52,989 nt of DNA from Verrucomicrobiaceae bacterium. GTDB lineage: Bacteria > Verrucomicrobiota > Verrucomicrobiia > Verrucomicrobiales > Verrucomicrobiaceae. The notes beneath the pieces were generated by a model, which worked only from the letters and a program-made list of their open reading frames with translations, was not told where the DNA came from and did no database searches. The stretch spans positions 1-52,989 of the forward strand of contig JAIYDW010000213.1 of assembly GCA_027487315.1 (NCBI GenBank), in the 5' to 3' direction. Shown one piece after another: positions 41,701 through 52,989 of the stretch (the stretch's first letter is position 1; every line of letters starts with the position of its first letter). The position numbers and the translations under genes were made by a program.

Positions 41701-42502
41701 CATCCTCAATTCCCACGCCTACCAGCGCGCCACCGACTCCGCCCTCACCGCTCACAGCCCCCTCTTCGCCGCACCCGCCCCACGTCGCCTCGGCGCCGAA
41801 CAAATCCTCGACTCCCTCTTCGCCGCCACCGGCAAACCGATGAACACCGAGGAAGTCAGCCTCGACATCGATGGCCGCCGCGATTTCAAAAACTCCATCT
41901 CCCTCGGCCATCCCACCCGTGCCTGGATGCTCGCCAGCACCAGCAACGAACGCGACCGACCCAGCCTCAGCCTCCCCCGCATCCAAGCGGTCTGCGACGT
42001 CCTCGAAGCCTTCGGTTGGCGCGGCGCCCGTCAGGACCCCGTCAGCACCCGCTCCACCGATCCGAATGCCCTTCAACCCGCCATCCTCAGCAACGGCACC
42101 GTCGGCATCTGGCTCACCCGCCTCAGCGACGACCACGGCATCACCCAGCTCGCTCTCCGGGACCTCCCGCTCGATCAATTCATCGACACCCTCTTCCTCC
42201 GCCTCCTCACCCGCCTCCCCACCGCCGAGGAAAAAGCCGTCTACCTCGCCCAACTCGAACCCGGTTACACCACCCGCAAAACCACGCCCCCCGAGACCAA
42301 ACCCACCCCACGTTACCCCTTCAAATACGTCTCCTGGTCAAACCACCTCGACACCGAAGCCAACACCCTCCGCCAACAGCAGGAAGTCGCCGCCCGCAAA
42401 GGCGATCCCCCCACCGCCCGCCTCACCGAAGCCTGGCGCACCCGCCTCGAAGACTCCCTCTGGGCCCTCCTCAACGCCCCCGAATGGGTCTTCGCCCCTT
42501 GA
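38795..42502 (+). CDS. LamG-type + cytochrome c + DUF1549/DUF1553 protein
   Basis: 1235 residues with signal peptide (MSRYALFLLLFGILPSSA). An N-terminal concanavalin/LamG-like domain spans about residues 45-255. A planctomycete cytochrome c-type domain follows, with CFSCH at residues 578-582 in YQDVLPILESNCFSCHQGG. DUF1549 starts near residue 665 (LRRVTLDTIGVTPSLAEIEAF), contains a second CxxCH, CARCH, at 813-817, and leads to DUF1553 (FAQVIANRVWQQLMGRGIVEPVEDW). Such proteins pair with DUF1501 proteins; here the DUF1501 gene lies about 600 nt downstream with a toxin-antitoxin pair between. Presumed role: heme-based redox on complex carbohydrates, unproven. Confidence 0.95.
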   Translation: MSRYALFLLLFGILPSSAKDEPKDAAQNDSTSVPQATPLIKWTFDTREPGTLSGKALITPTGPQKPIYPGFPVGNKAAVFTGKDSHIQIKEADLPNLNLRFGLGETFMVETWVSVDSLNNGSYVYLIGKGRNKNKAFTPENQNWALRLKGEGGEARPCFLFRSRKPDGKEDYHRWVAKEGFAPGSGWHHIAVSYTFGKLKSVSAWIDGKKAPGGTWDMAGETTAPPVQDADDILIGTGNGGGAGNTLNGALDELALYRELVPDDTLASRYQFRPPPPPIDPKTLPSDKVLVQICEDGVPAKNAWPALPPQPSETYFERAFGISELPQKYIATGVREDRPNPFLLRAAAKVTLPAGKHRLLLRGRNASHLHIDGKLFLELGFAKTDPGGHGRVAEQANYLDLGPDFRFTPPGTQETWAEFTSPGAEHTFVIEQMIGGMAGTSRRRPETGEMVIAISPQGSESWQLLSPTPDVIPYTDAGWTQYNSQHSQWLTTVNAERRAKARAAHAPYWTKRRQAADQWLANTPDTPVPAPTPKLPASNAIDHFLNAKITTVSAQVAATQKDGVNFYQDVLPILESNCFSCHQGGKAKGDLQLDSLSAALHGGESDGPAITPGEPEKSSLLARVTSTDEDFIMPPKGKPLTSDQVTTLKRWISEGAHWPELNVSRIEVTPLSDDLAFLRRVTLDTIGVTPSLAEIEAFQADTRPDKRAHTIDRLLADPRWADRWMGYWQDVLAENPNILNPTLNNTGPFRWYLHEALTDDRPMDLFVTELLRMQGSERFGGPAGFGTASGNDVPMAAKGTIVSTAFLGVEMKCARCHDAPAHQSSQQDLFELAALLETKSIDVPTTSSVPMDKLHEGGRKSLIQVTLQPGSKVEPKWPFSDFVDETLADTLAESPKDSRDRLAALITAPQNQRFAQVIANRVWQQLMGRGIVEPVEDWERGKPTHPELLSWLGREFVRGGYSLKNLARLILNSHAYQRATDSALTAHSPLFAAPAPRRLGAEQILDSLFAATGKPMNTEEVSLDIDGRRDFKNSISLGHPTRAWMLASTSNERDRPSLSLPRIQAVCDVLEAFGWRGARQDPVSTRSTDPNALQPAILSNGTVGIWLTRLSDDHGITQLALRDLPLDQFIDTLFLRLLTRLPTAEEKAVYLAQLEPGYTTRKTTPPETKPTPRYPFKYVSWSNHLDTEANTLRQQQEVAARKGDPPTARLTEAWRTRLEDSLWALLNAPEWVFAP

Positions 42503-42535
42503 GCATCCGCCTCCCTCGTGCTACCCTTTCCCATC

Positions 42536-42775
42536 ATGACTACGACTGCCGAATCTCTCATGAATACTCTTCTCGATCTTCCCGAGGCAGATCGCATGGA
42601 AATCGTCGAGCGCCTTCAAGACAGTCTCTTCGACGTCCTTCAACCCGCCGGGGAAATCAGCGAAGAACTCAAAGCAACCCTCGACCGCCGCTGGCAGGAA
42701 ATCGAAAGCGGCCAGGTCGAATGCATCCCTCATGAAACGGTCATGGCCAACCTGAAAGCCAAACATGGACTTTGA
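42536..42775 (+). CDS. antitoxin, addiction-module component type
   Basis: 79 residues starting MTTTAESLMNTLLDLPEADRMEIVERLQDSL, the pattern of the short addiction-module antitoxin family often paired with ParE-like toxins. The charged C-terminus ([25 protein letters not shown]) is the expected toxin-binding tail. The start at 42536 is favoured over the one at 42518 because the homologous region begins there. Its stop overlaps the TTG start of the toxin. Confidence 0.85.
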   Translation: MTTTAESLMNTLLDLPEADRMEIVERLQDSLFDVLQPAGEISEELKATLDRRWQEIESGQVECIPHETVMANLKAKHGL

Positions 42776-43071
42776 AAATTGTCACCCATCCTGAAGCTCA
42801 AGAGGAACTTTCGGAAGCTCTCCGATGGCTTCAGGAAAGAACCCTTCGGTCCGCTGATGACCTCTTCAACGCCTACGACAAACAAGTCGAACAGATCCGC
42901 CAATCACCAACCAGCCATCACTTCATTTATCGAGATTTTCGTCGGGCCAATCTGAAACGCTTTAGCTATCACCTGATCTACAGGACCACAGCCGACTCCC
43001 TCTTCATCATCGCCTTCGCCCACGACAAACGCCACCCCGACTACTGGAAGACCCGTATCCCCAGCGCCTAA
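42772..43071 (+). CDS. RelE/ParE-family toxin
   Basis: 99 residues from a TTG start that overlaps the antitoxin stop (TTGA). The N-terminal [15 protein letters not shown] is typical of ParE-like toxins. [24 protein letters not shown] and [17 protein letters not shown] complete the core. It is a different subfamily from the toxin at 3400, sharing only the general fold. Wedged between a DUF1549/1553 gene and its DUF1501 partner, it looks like an insertion into that operon. Confidence 0.87.
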
Positions 43072-43108
43072 CCTCTCCGCAATCCGCAATCCCAAATCCG
43101 CAATCACC

Positions 43109-44377
43109 ATGAACCGCCGCCACTTCCTCCAATCCACCGCCCTCGCCGCCACCGCCTCCCCCCTCCTCCACGGCACCACCCCCATCGCCAAACCCAAAGG
43201 CAAAGCCGAACACTGCATCTTCATCTGGCTCGGCGGCGGCATGGCCCAAATCGACACCTTCGACCCCAAACCTCTCGGTGACCCCAAAGCCTCCCCCAAA
43301 AAAGCCGGCTCCGCCTACGCCTCCATCGAAACCTCCGTTCCCGGCGTCCGCCTCTCCCAGCACCTCCCCAAAACCGCCCGCCTCATGGAGCACGTCACCG
43401 CCGTCCGCTCGGTGAACCACAACATCATCAACGAGCACGCCATCGCCACCAACTTCGTCCACACCGCCCGCCCCATCAGCGGCAGCACCAGCTACCCCTC
43501 CATCGGCTCCATCGTCGCCCATCAACGCGGCGCCGTGAATCCCAAGGTGCCCGCCTACATGCTCATCGGCTACCCCAGCCCCAGCCGCGGTCCCGGATTC
43601 CTCGGCGCCAAATTCGGCAACATCTACCTCACCGACACCACCTCCGGCCCCGCCGGCTTCACCCGCCCCGAAGACGTCACCAGCCAGCGCATCTCCACCC
43701 GGGAAAAACTCCTTCGCCCCCTGCAGGAGCGCGTCGCCGAATCCGCCGCCATGGCCGACTACGAAGCCGCTCAGCGCGAAGCCCTACGCCTCGCCGGCCC
43801 CGAGTTCATGCGCAACTTCAACCTCAAGGAAGAATCCGCCTCCCTCCGCAACGACTACGGCTCCGAGTTCGGCCAGCGCTGCCTCCTCGCCCGCCGCCTC
43901 ATCCAGGACGGCGTCCGTTTCATCGAGGTCTCTCACAACCTCGGCTTCGTCAACGGCACCGGCTGGGACACCCACAACGACGGCCAGGAAAAACAGCACC
44001 TCCTCATCAAAGACCTCGACGACGCCCTCGCCACCCTCATCACCGACCTCAAAACCCACGGTCTGCTCGATAAAACCCTCATCGCCCTCGGCACCGAGTT
44101 CGGTCGCCCCCCCGAGTTCGACAGCGGCGGCGGTCGCGGCCACCAATGCAGCACCTTCAGCCTCCTCCTCGCCGGCGGCGGTCTCAACCACTGCGGCGCC
44201 TACGGCGTCACCGATGACCTCTCCAAAAAGATCCTCGAAAACCCCGTCTCCGTCCCCGACTTCCACGCCACCATCCACTCCGCCCTCAACATCGACCCTG
44301 CCCACGAACTCATGGACGGCACCCGCCCCGTCCCCCTCACCGACAACGGCAAACCCATCGCCGCCCTCTTCGGCTAA
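43109..44377 (+). CDS. Tat-exported DUF1501 protein
   Basis: 422 residues with a twin-arginine signal ([20 protein letters not shown]). [20 protein letters not shown] is the DUF1501 start. [61 protein letters not shown] and [14 protein letters not shown] are its conserved blocks, with metal-binding His/Asp residues like those of the alkaline-phosphatase/sulfatase superfamily. It partners with the DUF1549/DUF1553 gene upstream. Confidence 0.94.
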
Positions 44378-44406
44378 AAATCCAAACGCAGTGCCCCATC
44401 GGAGGA

Positions 44407-44421
44407 CGGGATTGCATCCCG
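44407..44421. terminator. hairpin between convergent genes
   Basis: CGGGAT-TGC-ATCCCG is a perfect 6-bp stem with a 3-nt loop, lying between the DUF1501 stop (44377) and the convergent methyltransferase stop (44427). Position suggests a bidirectional terminator; the flanking T tract is weak. Confidence 0.45.
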
Positions 44422-44426
44422 CCCAC

Positions 44427-45104
44427 TTAACTCACCCCTCCTTCACCCTCCCTCGTCACAAACATCACCATGACCCGTCGGCATTCCGGAAACCGCTGAA
44501 TGCTCAACTCCCCAGCAAGCCCCGAAAACAGAGCCTCAATCTGAGCGTCACTCAAAAAGTGTTTGATCACTCTGAAGCTCGATCCATCAGACAGCCGCCT
44601 CTCCTGAATCGGGTTCCCCTCATCATCGAAAACGCCCGTCACGGAATGCTCACCAGGCAGTTGATCAATGAACACGATTGGTGATCCCGAACGAACTCGA
44701 CGAATCGCTCCCGCGAGAAACCCCTCCATCCTGGAAAGCGGCACATGCGCCAACCAATCAACCGCCAAAATCGCATCAAATACCCCCGGTATCAGATCCA
44801 GACGATAAGCATCCGCCTGCAAAAGAGTGACTCGATCCAATGGCAACCGCTTCTTCCGGGCCTCATCAAGAGTCGATGGATTGTAATCCGTCGCCGTGAC
44901 CGAAACCGCTGTCTCCGCTGCAAACTGAGTCCAAAACCCCGGTCCACAAGCGATCTCTAAAACCTGCCTTCCACGCATCGCACTGCGGACACGCTCGATG
45001 ATCGGCAACAGAACACGAACCTTCGCCTCATCGTCATAGCCCATCGACGAATCATAAACAGAGGCCCTTTGCCCGTAATACCTCTGCATCTCTTCAATGA
45101 TCAT
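44427..45104 (-). CDS. class I SAM-dependent methyltransferase
   Basis: 225 residues. Motif I is VLEIACGPGFWTQF, followed by VTATDYNPSTLDEAR (motif II) and VTLLQADAYRLD and FDAILAVDWLAHVP (motifs III and IV). The N-terminal YYGQRASVYDSSMGYD is common in small-molecule methyltransferases. Substrate unknown. It lies just left of the integron array and on the same strand, but no attC site separates it from chromosomal DNA, so I treat it as backbone. It could be a cassette that has lost its attC. Confidence 0.9.
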   Translation of the reverse strand: MIIEEMQRYYGQRASVYDSSMGYDDEAKVRVLLPIIERVRSAMRGRQVLEIACGPGFWTQFAAETAVSVTATDYNPSTLDEARKKRLPLDRVTLLQADAYRLDLIPGVFDAILAVDWLAHVPLSRMEGFLAGAIRRVRSGSPIVFIDQLPGEHSVTGVFDDEGNPIQERRLSDGSSFRVIKHFLSDAQIEALFSGLAGELSIQRFPECRRVMVMFVTREGEGGVS

Positions 45105-45268
45105 AGTCTTTCAGCAATGAGCGACTCCACCCAAACCAGCACAGCAATCCTACCATCGCCACGTTAGCCTTGAAAAGACGAAAAGTCATATCGAACCAAG
45201 GCGTCGGCTAGGCATCGCCATGTAGCGGCCTCTTGAACGAAGCCCCTCTCCAAGAATGACGCAGCCTC

Positions 45269-45296
45269 AACGCCGAGGGTTGAGAAGTTCGGCGTT
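45269..45296 (-). terminator. hairpin downstream of the last cassette gene
   Basis: AACGCCGA (45269-45276) and TCGGCGTT (45289-45296) form a perfect 8-bp inverted repeat with a 12-nt loop, 10 nt past the stop of the last array gene. An alternative stem, CTCAAC/GTTGAG, overlaps it. No T tract. It may end array transcription or be an attC relic. Confidence 0.3.
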
Positions 45297-45305
45297 TAAG
45301 CGTTT

Positions 45306-45680
45306 TCAAGGCAGCACCACAGCCCCAATCGCATGATCGGTGCCGTCCGGATCCCAATACTTGACAGTGTAAGTCCCTGCGGAAACGCCCTTCACTTCAA
45401 CATAACCCGGATACCCACCCTTCCGGTTGGCACGGGTAAAGCTCGCAGTCACCAGAATGCCCGATCAGGGAACCTGAGTCCTGACGGCGTCAATCCATTG
45501 CCCTGAATGAACAATCTTCGTCTCAAAAGCAATCGGGATCCGATAGGCGCCTCCCCCGAGCGTAGCGGGAGCCCCAATAGCAATTCCACCAGCAGCAAAA
45601 AAGTCCCGTGACTTAGTCTCGGAACGTCCGGCCAGCGTGACAGTCGCCAGCAATAGCATTGTGCTGAGTCGGTGTTTCAT
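45306..45680 (-). pseudogene. cassette 13 gene, interrupted by in-frame TGA
   Basis: Starts MKHRLSTMLLLATVTLAG, a signal peptide, and reads GGIAIGAPATLGGGAYRIPI before a TGA at 45465-45467. The same frame continues without a gap (SGILVTASFTRANRKGGYPG, VEVKGVSAGTYTVKYWDPDG) to TGA at 45306-45308. The whole frame gives about 123 residues of a secreted beta-rich protein. The C-terminal part looks like a small carbohydrate-binding or Ig-like domain. It is the leftmost member of the cassette array. The only attC next to it is on its 5' side; no clear attC follows. Confidence 0.7.
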
Positions 45681-45684
45681 CTTT

Positions 45685-45787
45685 TTCTAACGCTCAAACT
45701 GAGCCGCGATCATAGCTGGCACGGAGTGTGTTGCTCACAGCACACTCGGTGACAGACATCATCGTTGGCTCTAGTGCTTTGTAAGGC
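45685..45787 (-). other. attC12, divergent type
   Basis: Read on the minus strand: R'' GCCTTAC, spacer AAAGCA, L'' CTAGAGCC, then L' GGCTCAG, spacer TTTGAGC, R' GTTAGAA. L'' has one extra A over the complement of L'. The sequence is unlike the ten-member family and closer to the general attC consensus at R' (GTTRRRY). It follows the VOC cassette gene. Confidence 0.65.
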
Positions 45788-46252
45788 TCATTTTTTCTTC
45801 ATCTGCACTGCTATGCGATTTCCTTCCGAGTCTTCAAATTCAGCAACAAATCCGTAATCTCCTACGTCGGTCTTGGGGTATAAAACCCTCCCGCCGCCTT
45901 TTGTCGCTCTACTTAAAGTGGAATCAATGTCCAATGTGGAAAAGTATATCCGTGATCCATCGAGAGAAGGCTTGTAACTATCTCCTTTTGCTAAAGCACC
46001 GGTGGCACCTTCGGTGCCAGCAGTATAAGGGAAAAGCGCCATTTCATTTCCGTCTATGCTCTGCTTTTCAAATTCAAATTCAAAAACCATGGAATAAAAT
46101 TCCATAGCCCTGTCTATCTCATTAACTGGTATCTCGCAGTATGATATGGGATTGTTCATGTTGTGTTTTTGTGACGATGCGCATCCAACTAGCGCCATTA
46201 TCCAAAGCGCAATTCCAGAAGCTCTGACTCGAGTTTTCATTTGGTTTTCCAT
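45788..46252 (-). CDS. cassette 12: VOC-fold (glyoxalase-like) lipoprotein
   Basis: 154 residues. The signal (RASGIALWIMALVGC) ends in a lipobox, so a lipoprotein is likely. The VOC pattern follows: ISYCEIPVNEIDRAMEFYSMVF, MALFPYTAGTEGATGAL, ISYCE-type strand repeated as IYFSTLDIDSTLSRATKGGGRVLYP and DYGFVAEFEDSEGNRIAVQ. VOC proteins include glyoxalases, dioxygenases and antibiotic-binding proteins; an exported lipid-anchored form is uncommon. An internal ATG at 46240 is an alternative start. Confidence 0.85.
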   Translation of the reverse strand: MENQMKTRVRASGIALWIMALVGCASSQKHNMNNPISYCEIPVNEIDRAMEFYSMVFEFEFEKQSIDGNEMALFPYTAGTEGATGALAKGDSYKPSLDGSRIYFSTLDIDSTLSRATKGGGRVLYPKTDVGDYGFVAEFEDSEGNRIAVQMKKK

Positions 46253-46259
46253 TCTGTAT

Positions 46260-46352
46260 CCCTAACGACTCAGTTCAGGCGACGGCGAGCGCAAGACGTT
46301 GCTGACACGACAGATAGCCTTCGAACCGTTGCCTGCATCCGTTTTGTCGCCC
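46260..46352 (-). other. attC11, family type A, degenerate
   Basis: Minus strand: R'' is shortened to GGGCGAC (one T lost from the GTTCGCCC of the plus strand). L'' CGGATGCAGGC is intact, but L' reads GCCTGAACTGAG instead of GCCTGATCCGAG, and R' is GTTAGGG. Pairing of both arms is damaged. Confidence 0.8.
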
Positions 46353-46375
46353 TTGGTTTTGTTGTTGGTGCTCCT

Positions 46376-46933
46376 TCATACCTTCTTCTGGGAAAGCAGT
46401 TGTGTGATGGGCTCGTTCGATGCTCGATGGCGATAGCCAATGCCGATCAGCCATAAAGCGATCACCGCCATAACAAGACAGAACCAAGGTCCCATTCTAC
46501 GGTCGCTCTCGACGGACTTGTTGTGGGCATCGATCAACAGAGCGTCACGGCCCTCAATCTTCATCGTAATGAACTCATAAAACTGCTGGTTCCGGAGCCA
46601 GTTCCTTCGTGGAGACGAAGACTCCGAAGCGGCTACTCCCAATACAACCGGTGCTCCCGGACCGAGTCGAGAAAGGGCATCTCTAGCGAACGCATGGGGA
46701 TACAGCTTCGAGAAGCATCGAAACGGCACAGACTGGTCAGATAATGAAATCTCCAGGCATGCATTCTTGCCGCTGAACTCACGAGCATCGATTACAGTGC
46801 CAGCAATCCGCGTAATGTCCGCGTCGGTCAGTAGAGGAGCGGTAATCCAATGGTATGCCAAGAATGACACTATCCCGAGACCAATAACGCCAAGGCCCAT
46901 TAATCGTTTTGGAGTGAAGGACGCTGGATTCAT
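46376..46933 (-). CDS. cassette 11: two-pass membrane protein, unknown
   Basis: 185 residues. Hydrophobic helices at residues ~12-30 (LMGLGVIGLGIVSFLAYHWI) and ~148-167 (WFCLVMAVIALWLIGIGY) bracket a soluble middle domain (DADITRIAGTVIDAREF, NACLEISLSDQSVPFRCFS, GAPVVLGVAASES). The middle domain resembles loop domains of small DUF-type inner membrane proteins but no family is assigned. The start lies 13 nt after the GTT of attC10. Confidence 0.8.
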   Translation of the reverse strand: MNPASFTPKRLMGLGVIGLGIVSFLAYHWITAPLLTDADITRIAGTVIDAREFSGKNACLEISLSDQSVPFRCFSKLYPHAFARDALSRLGPGAPVVLGVAASESSSPRRNWLRNQQFYEFITMKIEGRDALLIDAHNKSVESDRRMGPWFCLVMAVIALWLIGIGYRHRASNEPITQLLSQKKV

Positions 46934-46939
46934 TGGTTA

Positions 46940-47033
46940 GGCGAACGTCTCGGATCAGGCGACGGCGAGCGGGAAGCGTCGATGACACGACAGATGCCAT
47001 ACGAGCCGTTGCCTGCATCCGTTTTGTTCTGCC
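46940..47033 (-). other. attC10, family type B
   Basis: Minus strand: R'' GGCAGAAC, spacer AAAA, L'' CGGATGCAGGC, variable part containing CGTATGGCATCTGTCGTGTC, L' GCCTGATCCG, spacer AGAC, R' GTTCGCC. R'' carries an A-G change relative to the family. Confidence 0.88.
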
Positions 47034-47048
47034 TTGGGTTACGGTGAA

Positions 47049-47600
47049 TCATGTTTGTATTCTTGGTGGTTCTGGATGCCTCGTCAACCACTCCGCCGCC
47101 GTCAGGCGCACATGCTCGTCAAATGCCTTGATGGCGGCATCGCCGTAGAGACCATTGAAGCCGATCACGTTTGGAGAATCCATCATGTCTTCGTAACTCC
47201 AGTAAGCTCCGATGAAGTCGTGCATATCGTGAGAATCGCCGACATAGACGCTCGACTGATGAATCGAAACCTCGGTCCAGTAAACCTCCTTCATCAGTCG
47301 ATGAAGTTCGTTGTGTGGCGTGCTCTCGCCTCCAGTGATCCGCGTAGCATAATGGTGCAATAGAATCTCAACCGCTTCCTGACGGGTGGGTAACGCAAGC
47401 CCGATACGTCGCGCTGCTGCATCAAACAAGGCCTGAGACTCGTGCATAGTCGAGACAGGTTCCCAGGCAAGTTCGTGTAGTTCTGGTGCTTCGTGACCAC
47501 TCTCAATCAGCAATATGGCCAACCTCTGAAACTCAGTGGCGCTGAAGTGAAGCAACACACGACGAGCAAGCTGGACATCGAAAGGCAAGTCTGGCGTCAC
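47049..47600 (-). CDS. cassette 10: hypothetical soluble protein
   Basis: 183 residues, acidic and soluble, rich in His and Trp (ELHELAWEPVSTMHESQALF, LHRLMKEVYWTEVSIHQSS, DMHDFIGAYWSYEDMM). No signal peptide or membrane helix. No family recognised. The C-terminus ends 16 nt before attC10. Confidence 0.78.
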   Translation of the reverse strand: MTPDLPFDVQLARRVLLHFSATEFQRLAILLIESGHEAPELHELAWEPVSTMHESQALFDAAARRIGLALPTRQEAVEILLHHYATRITGGESTPHNELHRLMKEVYWTEVSIHQSSVYVGDSHDMHDFIGAYWSYEDMMDSPNVIGFNGLYGDAAIKAFDEHVRLTAAEWLTRHPEPPRIQT

Positions 47601-47617
47601 GATACGCTTCGTTGGTT

Positions 47618-47712
47618 GGCAGAACGACTCGGATCAGGCGACGGCGAGCGCAAGACGTTGCTGACACGACAGATAGCCTTCGAGCCGTTGCCTGCATCCG
47701 TTTTGTTCGCCC
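47618..47712 (-). other. attC9, family type A
   Basis: Minus strand: R'' GGGCGAAC, AAAA, L'' CGGATGCAGGC, type A middle (GCTATCTGTCGTGTCAGCAACGTC), L' GCCTGATCCG, AGTC, R' GTTCTGCC. The R' box has a C-T change relative to GTTCGCCC. Confidence 0.9.
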
Positions 47713-47779
47713 TTTTGTGGCCGTAGGTTAGCTGTGCTGTGGTCATGTTGGAATCCGTGCGCTTCGTCTCTGGATTTGG

Positions 47780-48145
47780 CTACCAAAATCTCCACCAAGG
47801 CTTCTTCGAGGTCGCCTGACTAGCGCAGTGCTGGCAATGCGGCTTGGGTGCCTCGCCGCGAAGCCATGCTGGAAGAATGGTGCCGCGTGGAACGGACCAA
47901 TCAAACTGATCGCCATCTGAAAAGATTGCCTCGCATGGACAGCCCTGTAGCGCCTCAGCCGTCAGGGATAACTCCTCCTCGGTCTCTGGTTGATGGTAAA
48001 TGTAGGCAACTCCCATCTCATCATCGCGGCGAAACACGGTTGGTGCCGTCTCTCTGCAAAGGTCACAGACCAAACACTGATCATCTACATAGAACTTCCC
48101 TGGAGCGTTCTGCGGGAGTCTGTTGCTGAACGTGTCTGCTGGCAT
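47780..48145 (-). CDS. cassette 9: single-cluster ferredoxin, [4Fe-4S] type
   Basis: 121 residues. Cluster ligands are CLVCDLC (first three Cys) and the Cys-Pro of ALQGCPCEAIF (fourth), the layout of small single-cluster ferredoxins. FYVDDQC and APTVFRRDDEMGVAYIY fill the usual places. A C-terminal extension carries CQHC and ends WWRFW. It is probably a soluble electron carrier; the partner is unknown. Redox proteins are unusual in cassettes. Confidence 0.88.
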   Translation of the reverse strand: MPADTFSNRLPQNAPGKFYVDDQCLVCDLCRETAPTVFRRDDEMGVAYIYHQPETEEELSLTAEALQGCPCEAIFSDGDQFDWSVPRGTILPAWLRGEAPKPHCQHCASQATSKKPWWRFW

Positions 48146-48163
48146 AGCGGTGCGCTGTTAGTT

Positions 48164-48258
48164 GGGCGAACGTTTCGGATCAGGCGACGGCGAGCGGGAG
48201 GCGTCGATGACACGACAGATGCCATACGAGCCGTTGCCTGCATCCGTTTTGTTCGCCC
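48164..48258 (-). other. attC8, family type B
   Basis: Minus strand: R'' GGGCGAAC, AAAA, L'' CGGATGCAGGC, type B middle (GTATGGCATCTGTCGTGTCA), L' GCCTGATCCG, AAAC, R' GTTCGCCC. Fully canonical for the family. Confidence 0.92.
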
Positions 48259-48280
48259 TTGGTTGGTGGTGATGGGGGTT

Positions 48281-48709
48281 TCATGTCGTGGCTGAAGTCT
48301 GACAATGCCTCGTCAAGCTGTGGGTCACCAAAAAGGCCGCGACTGCGGGGCTCGACAATATCGTGAGGACAACGCTGTAGTAGCAACTCCAGGCAACGAT
48401 GGCTGTCATAGGAAACTGTGAGCGGCAGACCTCGTAGATGAACCCAAGAATGACCGCCAAAGCTGCGGCGATCAGAGGACATGCGAGAGCAAACAGAAGG
48501 CGATGCCTGTCTGTAGAACGCCTAGAGATCCCGGCCACCGAACCCACCACAACAGCCCAGGTGATGAGCCACACGAATACAGTGACCTCGGGTCTGGTCC
48601 AGTCGGAGCGTCCAAAAATGCCAATGAACAACATCGGTGGAGCCAAGGAAAGTCCGCCACAGCACCAATCGATGGCTCGATAGCCTTGATGACCGTTAGC
48701 GCTGTTCAT
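48281..48709 (-). CDS. cassette 8: small multi-pass membrane protein
   Basis: 142 residues with four hydrophobic helices (LSLAPPMLFIGIFG, VTVFVWLITWAVVVGSVAG, LFALACPLIAAALAVILGF, SVVLTILSSPAVAAFLV). Short polar ends. No family recognised. Starts 31 nt after the GTT of attC7. Confidence 0.78.
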   Translation of the reverse strand: MNSANGHQGYRAIDWCCGGLSLAPPMLFIGIFGRSDWTRPEVTVFVWLITWAVVVGSVAGISRRSTDRHRLLFALACPLIAAALAVILGFIYEVCRSQFPMTAIVAWSCYYSVVLTILSSPAVAAFLVTHSLTRHCQTSATT

Positions 48710-48732
48710 AATCGGCGAAGGACTTGGTTGTT

Positions 48733-48827
48733 GGGCGAACGTCCCGGATCAGGCGACGGCGAGCGCAAGACGTTGCTGGCACGACAGATAGCCTTCGAGC
48801 CGTTGCCTGCATCCGTTTTGTTCGCCC
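48733..48827 (-). other. attC7, family type A
   Basis: Minus strand: R'' GGGCGAAC, AAAA, L'' CGGATGCAGGC, type A middle, L' GCCTGATCCG, GGAC, R' GTTCGCCC. One base of the middle differs (GCCAGC for GTCAGC). Confidence 0.92.
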
Positions 48828-48887
48828 TTGGTTGGTTCTGTGGCCTGATCTGCTGTGGTCATAGTGATGCCTGGTGTCTGGTCGTGA

Positions 48888-49304
48888 TCAACGCTGTGCA
48901 ATGAACCACTCCACCGTGGCTGAAAGGCAGTGTAGATCAGTCTCATCATAAATGTTCACGGTGATCTCAATACTCCCACGTCGCTTCGTGCTAATGTCGG
49001 CCAGAAGCTGCTCTCGTGCGGCGTCAGGGATGGCGGCACGAGCTGCAATTGAGCCGCTTGCAGGCTTGCGGAACTTGCAGTCGAAGCGCCGAACGACTGG
49101 GACGATGGAATCTGCGACGTGCCCGATGGCTCGAAGTAAAACCTCACCACTGGTGGCCTCAGCGAGAGACATCAATGCACTGGCGTGAACAGTCCCAAGG
49201 TGGTTCGTGTAACGGTCTCCAGAGGGAAGGCTAAGCACATAGCCCTCTCGCTTGCAGTGCTCGACGCCAATGAACTGGTTAAATGGGAGCTTTGTGATGT
49301 CCAT
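48888..49304 (-). CDS. cassette 7: hotdog-fold thioesterase-like protein
   Basis: 138 residues. GVEHCKREGYVLSLPSGDRYTNHLGTVHASALMSLAEATSGEVLL is the hotdog core with the conserved N/H...HASAL start of the central helix typical of DUF4442/PaaI-like acyl-CoA thioesterases. The strand FDCKFRKPASGSI and SIEITVNIYDETDL complete the fold. Likely hydrolyses an acyl-thioester; substrate unknown. Confidence 0.85.
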   Translation of the reverse strand: MDITKLPFNQFIGVEHCKREGYVLSLPSGDRYTNHLGTVHASALMSLAEATSGEVLLRAIGHVADSIVPVVRRFDCKFRKPASGSIAARAAIPDAAREQLLADISTKRRGSIEITVNIYDETDLHCLSATVEWFIAQR

Positions 49305-49350
49305 GACTTTGAATCGTTGATTTCTGATCGACGAGGGGCGCTTCGAGGTT

Positions 49351-49446
49351 GGGCGAACCGTCCAGGATCAGGCGACGGCGAGCGCAAGAGGTTGCTGACA
49401 CGACAGATAGCCTTCGAGCCGTTGCCTGCATCCGTTTTGTTCGCCC
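49351..49446 (-). other. attC6, family type A
   Basis: Minus strand: R'' GGGCGAAC, AAAA, L'' CGGATGCAGGC, type A middle (GCAACCTCTTGCGCTC), L' GCCTGATCCT, spacer GGACG, R' GTTCGCCC. L' has one change and the spacer one extra base. Confidence 0.9.
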
Positions 49447-49451
49447 CAGTG

Positions 49452-50027
49452 CTACTTTTTGGCGTCTGTCGTTTGTTGTGTCGCATCAGTCAGGCGAGAA
49501 AGGTAATAGTCACGGCAAGCTTGATCGAATGATGGAACACCCTCACGTTTCGGGTCTTTGATGTCGATCAAGTATGCGTTCTGCTGGCAGTAGAATAGCC
49601 CAACGCCATACTGCAAGGACAAGGAATCGGCGAGTTTTGGGCCGTCCGGCGAGGGCTCGTTCCACCCGTATGGAAAGTAGATGATGTTGGGCAGAGGTAT
49701 CTGGCCACCAAGACGAGGATCAGCAACCTTGGCGTCCGGTGGGAAGTCCCGATAGAAACCGGTCAGAAGCTTCTTCAGTGAGTCGATATCAAAGACTCTA
49801 TCCAGCCCATGAATCCGATAGGCTGGCTTATCTGGCTTGGTTCGGCGCATTACGTCATCACCATAGATGACAATGCTGTATGTCGATTCCGAGCGGAGAT
49901 GATGCTTCGGGGAGAGCTTAGAGTCAGGAGGGCGGACAACTGTGAACCCAAATGCTCTCGGATCTGGCTGTTGAGCCGAACAAGCGAGCGCACTTCCAAA
50001 GATCAAAGCGGGTAGCAAATATCGCAT
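49452..50027 (-). CDS. cassette 6: exported hypothetical protein
   Basis: 191 residues. Signal MRYLLPALIFGSALAC with a Cys at position 16 that could act as a lipobox. The mature chain (FGFTVVRPPDSKLSPKH, SIVIYGDDVMRRTKP, LPNIIYFPYGWNEPSPDG) is rich in Pro and aromatic residues. No family recognised. The stop is 5 nt before attC6's R'' box. Confidence 0.8.
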   Translation of the reverse strand: MRYLLPALIFGSALACSAQQPDPRAFGFTVVRPPDSKLSPKHHLRSESTYSIVIYGDDVMRRTKPDKPAYRIHGLDRVFDIDSLKKLLTGFYRDFPPDAKVADPRLGGQIPLPNIIYFPYGWNEPSPDGPKLADSLSLQYGVGLFYCQQNAYLIDIKDPKREGVPSFDQACRDYYLSRLTDATQQTTDAKK

Positions 50028-50047
50028 AGCAATTGACTCCGTTTGTT

Positions 50048-50142
50048 GGGCGAACGACCCGGATCAGGCGACGGCGAGCGGGAAGCGTCGATGACACGAC
50101 AGATGCCATACGAGCCGTTGCCTGCATCCGTTTTGTTAGCCC
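50048..50142 (-). other. attC5, family type B
   Basis: Minus strand: R'' GGGCTAAC, AAAA, L'' CGGATGCAGGC, type B middle, L' GCCTGATCCG, GGTC, R' GTTCGCCC. R'' has a G-T change that creates the stop codon of the preceding gene. Confidence 0.9.
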
Positions 50143-50678
50143 TTGGTGGCATCGCTGGTGATCTTGTTCGTCTTGAGGTCATACTCGAGGTGAAGCCGGA
50201 CTCCGGTGCCTGACTTCTTGGCGTGTGAACCACGGAGCGTAAACCGCAAAGTCTCACGGTCCGTCCAGGTCCAGTCATCAATACCTGTGTGGTAAAGCTC
50301 AGACATCTTGTGGTCTGATATCGTGTCTGAAAATTGCCATGCCATCCAGTCCAAACGCGACTCACAACGCAACACACGGCCAGCATCGTCAACCGTGTAG
50401 AGCCAAGCGATGTTGTCGCCTGAACCTGTCTTCTGAACATAGAGAATCCATCTTCCATCAGGTGACTTCTTGAAAAGGGGCTTCCAAGGTGGACCCGCTT
50501 CATCATCGTAGATCAATGTCACCGCAGGATGAGATGCGTCCGTAAACTTCACTTCCGCTCGCCAAGCTGCTTCGACCTGCGAAACATCTATGGCGTAGGC
50601 GGGCGGAGCAGAACAGGCTGTCGAAGCCGCAAAGACCTCAGTCAGGAAGATTGCTGAACTGGCAATGGCGAGGCGCAT
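50136..50678 (-). CDS. cassette 5: exported hypothetical protein
   Basis: 180 residues with a signal peptide (MRLAIASSAIFLTEVFAASTACSA). The domain (AVTLIYDDEAGPPWKPLFKK, SPDGRWILYVQKTGSGDNIA, DWTWTDRETLRFTLRGSHAK) has the look of a beta-propeller-like or TolB-like segment, weak. The TAA stop at 50136-50138 lies inside the R'' box of attC5. Starts 16 nt after the GTT of attC4. Confidence 0.8.
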   Translation of the reverse strand: MRLAIASSAIFLTEVFAASTACSAPPAYAIDVSQVEAAWRAEVKFTDASHPAVTLIYDDEAGPPWKPLFKKSPDGRWILYVQKTGSGDNIAWLYTVDDAGRVLRCESRLDWMAWQFSDTISDHKMSELYHTGIDDWTWTDRETLRFTLRGSHAKKSGTGVRLHLEYDLKTNKITSDATKG

Positions 50679-50687
50679 CGTTGTTTG

Positions 50688-50780
50688 GGCTAACGTTTCG
50701 GATCAGGCGACGGCGAGCGGGAGGCGTCGATGACACGACAGATGCCATACGAGCCGTTGCCTGCATCCGTTTTGTTCGGC
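50688..50780 (-). other. attC4, family type B
   Basis: Minus strand: R'' GCCGAAC, AAAA, L'' CGGATGCAGGC, type B middle, L' GCCTGATCCG, AAAC, R' GTTAGCC. R'' and R' no longer pair perfectly. Confidence 0.9.
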
Positions 50781-50787
50781 GTTGCGG

Positions 50788-51192
50788 TCATTCGGGAAGA
50801 TCGTTGAAGAATTGCCGCACATCATAATTGGCGATGGTGCGTGCTAAACTGAGTGGGCTGACGCCGTGCTTGTTCTGGCGATTTGGGTCGGCTCCGGCCT
50901 CGCGGAGTAGCTGAATAAGCTCACCGCGACCGTTCGAGTAGAACACCGCTTTGCATAGTGGGGTGTTGCCGTGCGTGTCTTGGGCTTCCACGGGAGCGCC
51001 GTGCGTGATGAGCAGAGCCGCCGCGCCAACAGAGTATTCTTGAGCCGCGAAGTGAAGAGGCGTCAAACCAGACTTATCAGCGGCACCCGCAGCAAAACCC
51101 GCTTCGAGCAAGTGTTGCACCTCCGCAATGTTGTTCTCCAGCGCGGCATAATGCAGAGCTGTCCTTCCATCACGGTCAATTGAAGTCGTCAT
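50788..51192 (-). CDS. cassette 4: ankyrin-repeat protein
   Basis: 134 residues from the ATG at 51192 (MTTSIDRDGRTALHYAALE). Three to four ankyrin repeats are plain: GRTALHYAALENNIAEVQHLLEAG, GLTPLHFAAQEYSVGAAALLITHG, GNTPLCKAVFYSNGRGELIQLLREAG, then GVSPLSLARTIANY. The frame stays open back into attC3 to 51291, which would add about 33 residues of attC-coded peptide; this is unlikely to be made. It presumably mediates protein-protein contacts. Confidence 0.88.
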   Translation of the reverse strand: MTTSIDRDGRTALHYAALENNIAEVQHLLEAGFAAGAADKSGLTPLHFAAQEYSVGAAALLITHGAPVEAQDTHGNTPLCKAVFYSNGRGELIQLLREAGADPNRQNKHGVSPLSLARTIANYDVRQFFNDLPE

Positions 51193-51212
51193 TTTGGAAA
51201 GCGGGTAGTATC

Positions 51213-51305
51213 GCCGAACGTCTCGGATCAGGCGACGGCGAGCGCAAGACGTTGCTGACACGACAGATAGCCTTCGAGCCGTTGCCTGCATCCGTTTTGT
51301 TCGGC
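51213..51305 (-). other. attC3, family type A
   Basis: Minus strand: R'' GCCGAAC, AAAA, L'' CGGATGCAGGC, type A middle, L' GCCTGATCCG, AGAC, R' GTTCGGC. R'' and R' have co-varied (C-G swapped) and still pair perfectly. Confidence 0.93.
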
Positions 51306-51333
51306 CTTGGCGGGTGTTGGTTCGTGTGGATCA

Positions 51334-51831
51334 TCATGCATTTCGACTCAGAAAGGGCAATGCAGCAAAGAAAGCGGCAGCAAGATAGCCAGTCTGCCTG
51401 ATCGGCCAGTCACCAAACCACTCATTTCTGAGTCCAAGCGCCATCAGAACACAGCACCCTCCCAGAAGGACTCCAACAACGTAGTAAACAAAATGAAGTC
51501 GCGGTCTCCCGATGGTCAAATGTCGGCGACAAGCCCGAATGGCAAGCATCGCGAATTGGGCAAGATACAGCACCGAGATAGACAACACGACCATTGGCAG
51601 CCACATCTGCAAGACGACTTGCCACAGAGCACGACTATCGAGTGGGTAGCCATGAAAGTTCTGCCAGACTCCCCTGTGCACGTGTCCCGGAGGAAGATGC
51701 CATGATGCGAATCGTCGGTATTCCTCGTCAGCAAGTGAAAAGTAGAAGAGTGCGCAGATGCAAACAAAAAGCGCCGCGACCAAAATAGCTGCGGCGATCC
51801 CAAAGAGCCGAATCTTCGATATTGCAATCAT
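51334..51831 (-). CDS. cassette 3: four-pass membrane protein, unknown
   Basis: 165 residues from the ATG at 51831 (MIAISKIRLFGIAAAILVAALFV). Four hydrophobic helices (first near 9-30, then MVVLSISVLYLAQFAMLAI, YYVVGVLLGGCCVLMAL, GYLAAAFFAALPFL). A soluble loop between helices 1 and 2 contains RRFASWHLPPGHVHRGVWQNFHGYP. No family recognised. Lies between the divergent attC2 and attC3. Confidence 0.78.
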   Translation of the reverse strand: MIAISKIRLFGIAAAILVAALFVCICALFYFSLADEEYRRFASWHLPPGHVHRGVWQNFHGYPLDSRALWQVVLQMWLPMVVLSISVLYLAQFAMLAIRACRRHLTIGRPRLHFVYYVVGVLLGGCCVLMALGLRNEWFGDWPIRQTGYLAAAFFAALPFLSRNA

Positions 51832-51851
51832 CACGCTGGACTCCGCTTCTT

Positions 51852-51977
51852 GGCCGAACGTCAAAGGCCTGCCACCCGCTACCGGGGGCGCACCTCCGCC
51901 TCGGGTTTAGGTTTATCTTTACCCTCCGACTTCAACTGCGGGGCGGTAGCGGGTTGGTCAGCGCCGCCTTGTTCGCT
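51852..51977 (-). other. attC2, divergent type, overlaps the cassette 2 gene end
   Basis: Minus strand: R'' AGCGAAC, then L'' CCAACCCGCTACCG, loop, L' CGGTAGCGGGTGGC, spacer, R' GTTCGGC. L'' has one extra A over the complement of L'. AAGGC beside R'' can also pair with GCCTT before R'. The TAG stop of the cassette 2 gene lies in L'. Confidence 0.6.
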
Positions 51978-52463
51978 TATTGTTTTGAAGGCTGGGTTTC
52001 GAGCGAGTTCTTCCTGAAAAAGCTCGGCATAAATCCCTTTTAGCCGGTCGCAACTCCAGTGCGTCCCAATATCAAGAATCATCTTGTTGTTCTTCTTCTG
52101 CATGCCCTCGTGTGAAAAGAAAAAATACTCCAACTTTCCCGGAACAGTGGTGCGAAAATGGGAAAACAGCTTCGGAGAGTCCTCAATAAGGTATGAAAAC
52201 TCCAATTGAGTTCCGACGGTTAAATTGCCTTTGTGCACGCTCGCGATGACCGCTCTCTTCACAATTTCGCCCTTCCACTCCTCTTTTGTTGGAGGAATCC
52301 ACTCCTGCTCATAGATGCAGATAGTCGCTACTGAGTCGCTTTCGTCGATACGCGCGAGGATATTCTCTCTCATTGCGGCACGAAATTCAGGATCCTTCTC
52401 GTCCTGGCCGCTTGCGGACAATACGAAGGCAGCTAACACGGCGATTGATCCAGTAATATTCAT
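51879..52463 (-). CDS. cassette 2: secreted hypothetical protein
   Basis: 194 residues with a signal peptide (MNITGSIAVLAAFVLSASG). The mature part (DESDSVATICIYEQEWIPP, VKRAVIASVHKGNLTVGTQLEFSYLIED, TTVPGKLEYFFFSHEGM) looks beta-rich, with a disordered Lys/Pro/Glu-rich end encoded by the attC2 L'' to L' region. No family recognised. Starts 11 nt after the GTT of attC1. Confidence 0.8.
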   Translation of the reverse strand: MNITGSIAVLAAFVLSASGQDEKDPEFRAAMRENILARIDESDSVATICIYEQEWIPPTKEEWKGEIVKRAVIASVHKGNLTVGTQLEFSYLIEDSPKLFSHFRTTVPGKLEYFFFSHEGMQKKNNKMILDIGTHWSCDRLKGIYAELFQEELARNPAFKTISEQGGADQPATAPQLKSEGKDKPKPEAEVRPR

Positions 52464-52469
52464 TTTCTA

Positions 52470-52562
52470 GCGAACGTCTCGGATCAGGCGACGGCGAGCG
52501 CAAGACGTTGCTGACACGACAGATAGCCTTCGAGCCGTTGCCTGCATCCGTTTTGTTCGCCC
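52470..52562 (-). other. attC1, family type A
   Basis: Minus strand: R'' GGGCGAAC, AAAA, L'' CGGATGCAGGC with the extrahelical G, type A middle, L' GCCTGATCCG, AGAC, R' GTTCGCT. The R' box has lost its last pairing bases. Confidence 0.92.
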
Positions 52563-52583: not shown

Positions 52584-52989
52584 TCATGCTGGTGAAAATG
52601 GAGTAGTGTCCAAGTGACTGGCTGAAAAGGTCTGGATGAGGCGAAGACAACGATCTGAAACGACCAACCCGGATGAAGACTGTCCAAAATCATGCTCACC
52701 AGCAAGTCCTGAAATCCGAATCCACCTGAACTCAGGAAGCTGCCGATCCCCGTAAATGTCCGTGAACTGCTCAGATCGTGATACCTCAACATCTGCAACG
52801 GAGAAGCCAGTGAGTCCGGCTGAAACAAAGCTCTCTGTTAGTCCGCGTGTGGCGATGAAACACGGAAAGCTCTCCAATAGATCATCTCCCAGCCAACCAT
52901 CAAAGACGTAGTGCAATCGTGAAACAACGGGCGGATGAACCGCTGTGTCGATCTGTGTATTCGGCCCTAGACCGCCTGCCACCTCTGGC
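52584..52989 (-). CDS. cassette 1 gene, 5'-truncated by window edge
   Basis: The frame is open to the right window edge (the first visible codons read E-V-A-G-G-L); the GTG at 52982 need not be the start. About 134 residues are visible (VHPPVVSRLHYVFDGWLGDD, LLESFPCFIATRGL, FTDIYGDRQLPEFRWIRISG). No membrane helix is seen. No family recognised; the ADVEVS...RWIRISG pattern suggests a small alpha/beta protein. Ends 21 nt before attC1. Confidence 0.75.
   Translation of the reverse strand, partial: PEVAGGLGPNTQIDTAVHPPVVSRLHYVFDGWLGDDLLESFPCFIATRGLTESFVSAGLTGFSVADVEVSRSEQFTDIYGDRQLPEFRWIRISGLAGEHDFGQSSSGLVVSDRCLRLIQTFSASHLDTTPFSPA

Follow-up and report, generated by a model that had tools for sequence, protein, structure and literature searches.

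Broken attC sites form a step at the distal end of a Verrucomicrobiaceae chromosomal integron

Damage to the recombination sites of the integron described here is concentrated at its attI-distal end, where it sets in abruptly, as a step comprising the final three cassettes, and not as the gradient of decay that had been proposed for this array. The window, that is, the whole stretch of DNA analysed, is the 52 989-nucleotide contig C72 of a Verrucomicrobiaceae metagenome assembly (genome G000; 256 contigs, 5.87 Mb). The array end in this window probably belongs to a complete sedentary chromosomal integron, of which it is the attI-distal part, with the last three cassettes predicted to be locked in place by broken or missing R'' boxes.

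The cassette array lies on the minus strand from ~46.2 kb to the right contig end and contains ten near-identical attC sites of ~95 bp each (Table 1). Several sites in the window show the pairing of R'' with R' and of L'' with L', together with the unpaired bases, that characterise attC, and sites of a foreign type are present at 45684-45793 and 51853-51978. Contig C139 ends in 119 bp that are identical, as reverse complement, to the final 119 bp of the window; this stretch has no second copy in the genome, and an ORF runs unbroken over the join. C139 encodes an intact integron integrase, and its cassettes extend up to the end of the contig. An R box at C139:7399 (GTTCGGG) is a candidate attI, and the likely crossover point, because it matches the R'' of the first cassette (CCCGAAC). 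The overlap of the integrase contig with the window and the ORF across the join indicate that the integron is complete. The join to C139 at the right end also makes the left end of the window attI-distal without any use of decay. The orientation given in the original prediction was thus right, but the decay gradient cited in its support was not upheld.

Table 1. Features of the array end, its flank and the linked integrase contig (window coordinates unless C139 is given)
Feature	Position	Strand	Evidence or remark
Flanking DUF1501/sulfatase-like chromosomal gene (named by eye)	43109..44377	+	Stop codon is the distal array boundary
Array boundary: TTTAGCC, similar to R', across the stop codon of the DUF1501 gene (G007: GTTAGGT)	44374..44381	-	Sequence comparison
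SAM-dependent methyltransferase gene in variable region	44427..45104	-	Pfam Methyltransf_25, 8.6e-15
Short hairpin after last gene, CGCCGA..TCGGCG	45264..45305	-	Folding z = -2.05
Last small cassette gene, 124 codons, one in-frame stop	45306..45680	-	Homologues in G439, G289, G324
In-frame TGA	45465..45467	-	Homologues have Gly
attC of another type, broken R'' core (TAC for AAC)	45684..45793	-	L stem and long VTS fold well
VOC/glyoxalase-family cassette gene	45788..46252	-	Pfam Glyoxalase 4.4e-9
Main-type attC, R'' minus one base, two changes in L'	46259..46353	-	
Nine further main-type attC with cassettes (within 46939..52562)	46939, 47618, 48164, 48733, 49351, 50048, 50687, 51212, 52468	-	
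Intact foreign attC (within span 46939..52562)	51853-51978	-	
Exact unique overlap with end of C139 (12630-12748)	52871..52989	.	119 bp
Integron integrase	C139:6215-7231	-	TIGR02249, 368.9 bits vs curated cut-off 265

The four attC sites closest to attI (C139:7951-11358) differ in kind and are longer (127-131 bp), so that recent acquisitions seem to have another source. Among the main-type sites (46259-52562), two subtypes of the central loop, CTCGAAGGCTATC.. and CTCGTATGGCATC.., are intermixed along the array. The site at 49351-49446 has an additional base in the spacer ahead of R'; its R boxes are still cognate and it folds well. An Rfam scan gave no attC family match, and covariation on the alignment of main-type sites was uninformative because these are too similar.

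The crossover of cassette recombination falls inside R', and the R' half of each attC in an array is therefore that of the next cassette. We used a model-free test of intactness, which asks whether the R'' of a cassette (heptamer or outer bases) can pair with the start of that same cassette, as it has to in a free cassette. Across the family, this cognate rule gave a mean match of 4.37/5, vs 3.54 (sd 0.08) for randomly paired starts and ends. Counted from attI, R'' matched the cassette's own start in all 16 of the first 16 cassettes, namely those at C139 positions 7951, 9336, 10034, 11229, 11974 and 12469 (cassettes 1-6) and at window positions 52468, 51853, 51212, 50687, 50048, 49351, 48733, 48164, 47618 and 46939 (cassettes 7-16). 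None of the last three was cognate: the site at 46259 has lost a base, the core of 45684-45793 is changed and the last gene has no attC. The difference (16/16 vs 0/3) is supported by Fisher's test (p ~0.001; p = 0.0012 without cassette 1), with the caveat that three cassettes are few and that the lesions, taken as independent, may have a clustered origin.

The loss of an R'' base and the L' changes that had been reported for the site at 46260 (46259 in our coordinates) were both recovered. Its R'' reads GGGCGAC where GGGCGAAC is expected, one A having been lost, and its L' reads CTGAACTGAG vs CTGATCCGAG, a difference of two bases. Its covariance-model score was the lowest of the ten main-type window sites (98.4 vs 108.0-119.8 bits). 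The probability of the recombinogenic fold (R+L core, bottom strand, DNA parameters) lay between 0.89 and 0.96 for eight of the main-type sites, and the site at 50687 reached 0.44; for 46259 it was ~0.11 at most, and this only via a shifted R'' register. The altered R' half of this site, GTTAGGG, was considered as damage and rejected, being the start of the next cassette. In published experiments, sites with pfold >0.1 recombined well and excision was good at 0.24-0.35, and there was no excision with an attC pair of pfold 3e-3 and 8e-6 (PMC5371416). As its fold probability is near this working range, 46259 may keep residual activity.

The next site, described at 45685 as being of foreign type, is so (45684-45793), and its R box is unformed as well, with 0.4 expected R-box pairs vs 5-8.6 in intact sites. 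Its L stem folds very well (z = -4.1). The R'' reads GCCTTAC where CCCTAAC is expected, and the R box does not form because the core is TAC instead of AAC. The cassette gene between the two broken sites, of the VOC/glyoxalase family, has a G+C content of 0.43 vs 0.50-0.57 in the other cassettes. Foreign type had itself been read as a sign of decay. However, the foreign site at 51853 has an intact R box (6.1 expected pairs), and five of the six C139 sites, which are closest to attI, are foreign yet intact. Foreign attC type, which is most frequent close to attI, and decay are therefore separate matters.

The in-frame TGA announced for the last gene is present, at a position where all three homologues (57-63% identity; from another family of the same order) have Gly; no homologue was found among 67 other genomes of Verrucomicrobiaceae. 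Compared with the homologue L208, identity is 34/49 before the stop and 36/52 after it, and on either side the differences fall preferentially at third codon positions, which argues that the TGA is recent. The gene is read as a pseudogene of recent origin, whose product would have been small and either secreted or similar to a lipoprotein. The lipobox-like stretch has Arg in this gene, Cys in two homologues and Tyr in one; a loss of lipidation of the product is possible but uncertain. The expected absence of an attC after this gene was also borne out, the best candidates not scoring above shuffled sequence. The hairpin that follows the gene, which 8/200 shuffles matched in folding, is possibly a terminator or a much-shortened attC remnant. 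As a miniature attC it was rejected: the fold is weak, the attC search did not rise above shuffles and ~40 nt is too short for the published attC size range of 57-142 nt (PMC2727003).

The array had been taken to end at 45306, but its variable region continues to 44378. In the sister genome G007 (a Verrucomicrobiaceae MAG), contig C317 (record CANETF010000317) matches the flank at window positions 42000-44377 with 95.5% nucleotide identity, and homology ends at the stop codon of the DUF1501 gene, a gene also present in family members without an array. Because homology stops there, the variable region takes in the methyltransferase gene, which is probably the outermost array unit, with no recognisable attC (none was seen in the 50 bases downstream). 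This gene is missing at the matching place in G007, which has a 78% homologue on another contig. Past the shared flank, G007 has an array end of its own, consisting of one attC of the main type, one of foreign type whose score clearly exceeds those of shuffled sequence, and a different gene. When G007 was searched against 44378-52460, matches were found only at attC sites and the methyltransferase homologue. Thus, two sisters with ~5% flank divergence have different array ends at the same flank position, with zero cassette genes in common.

The DNA to the left of 45684, comprising the last gene and the methyltransferase gene, might instead be captured non-cassette DNA that arrived via another recombination at the array edge, in which case the absence of attC would not be decay. 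The lack of attC-like sequence above shuffles after the last gene, and of any in the 50 bases after the methyltransferase gene, fits this, as does the inspection by eye of the homologues of the last gene in the other family, beside which no clear attC was seen; in G007, moreover, the methyltransferase homologue adjoins large genes. However, the last gene begins ~10 bases or less from an R' box, as cassette genes do, and both genes lie in cassette direction inside the variable segment. We regard capture as a serious but rather unlikely alternative to a run of true cassettes.

A steady rise of damage with distance, as would follow from insertion at attI if age alone were responsible, is improbable. 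We scored the main-type sites by position with a covariance model (R2, built partly from genome G000), which was the check proposed for the gradient. From right to left, the scores were 119.8, 119.6, 110.1, 108.7, 108.0, 117.9, 115.1, 117.4, 109.7 and 98.4; part of this spread separates the two central-loop subtypes and does not reflect damage. The lowest score was at the left end, as anticipated, but the trend was weak, with Spearman's rho falling from 0.55 for the ten sites to 0.38 without 46259. In ten arrays of at least five sites, the mean rank correlation was 0.29, and -0.01 when the terminal site was left out. The position of the lesions at the far end agrees with an age gradient, and so does array C20 of the same genome (31682-35845), the clearest within-array slope examined (rho 0.81, lowest score at the distal end). 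Against it stand the disappearance of the trend without the terminal site and the perfect R'' in 16 consecutive cassettes. The claim that the far end is the oldest, frozen part is likewise unsupported, because the G007 array end shares no cassette gene despite the 95.5% identical flank.

We extended the scoring, for one attC type, to 26 family arrays in which the distal flank measured 1.5 kb or more. In 14 of them the lowest score was that of the distal-most site, against an expectation of 6.7 (p = 0.0017; by rank, p = 0.00015), whereas the proximal-most site was lowest in 5/20 arrays (5.4 expected), that is, without a proximal effect. The distal effect was weaker without C72 and C20 (p = 0.0015 by rank, 0.013 for the lowest score), and for the 15 arrays flanked on both sides p was 0.09. 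The terminal deficit lies mainly in L' (identity 0.83 vs 0.93), the spacer following it and R'. Part of the lower score arises because, wherever an array ends, its last site takes its R' half from the chromosome, but the deficit remains with R' left out (p = 0.005). Terminal cassettes of family arrays were cognate in 9/22 cases vs 38/50 (p = 0.007). The distal-end deficit across the family is thus real but moderate, and weaker than in the array studied here, in which 46259 is the last site of its type and not the last unit, because two units of other type come after it. Family arrays may be systematically capped at the distal end by a cassette with a broken attC, locked cassettes accumulating there and marking the edge of the mobile pool; we put this forward tentatively and with less than even confidence. 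A literature search, with subscription papers mostly beyond its reach, found no report of positional attC decay.

Consensus errors could in principle have produced the one-base deletion and the TGA, as the assembly is fragmented and repeated attC sites are difficult to assemble, but this is very unlikely given three distinct lesions in the last three units, none in the other 16 and a family-wide pattern in other assemblies.

Excision of a cassette requires two adjacent working attC sites. With the sites at 46259 and 45684-45793 broken, cassettes 17-19 are for this reason predicted to be locked in place. Cassettes would enter at attI through the integrase encoded on C139 and run leftward in the window. 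Those with working sites would repeatedly be excised and reinserted at attI, whereas locked cassettes would only be pushed outward and would then gain more mutations, such as the TGA. Locked cassettes would gather at the far end because mobile ones leave and re-enter at attI. We infer that such a sieve is the likely reason for the position of the broken cassettes at the end; age alone is not required.

The locus resembles the sedentary chromosomal integrons of Vibrio, Xanthomonas and Treponema in its integrase, its likely attI and its cassette genes, nearly all in one direction. It also shares with them a single dominant attC type per host taxon (PMC8352920). It differs from them in its ~20 cassettes, the mixed attC types at both ends and the broken distal attC. 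Taken alone, the window would be classed as a CALIN (an attC cluster without an integrase; IntegronFinder), which array C20 appears to be, but the array on C72 is not one because its contig joins the integrase contig. The best reading is that of a sedentary chromosomal integron of the ordinary kind whose tail is broken. For the reading of array ends in general, our results imply that neither a foreign attC type nor an altered R' half is evidence of age, and that an array need not be oldest and frozen at its end. Whether R'' pairs with the cassette's own start is a simple, model-free test of mobility, applicable to other arrays as well. Should the step at array ends prove to be more general, it would bear on how cassettes become fixed in chromosomes.

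Main-type attC sites were also found on contigs C20, C154, C158, C191, C76, C73, C206 and C227 of the same genome and in other family members. Several other attC-bearing contigs look like arrays without an integrase. At their right ends, C158 and C73 share 96 bp within a long-loop attC and are probably parts of a single array, a join that is tentative because the overlap lies within a repeated element. A second gene above the integron-integrase cut-off is present at C7:2169-3077 (336.9 bits), and a weaker relative at C206:223-1113 (227.6 bits).
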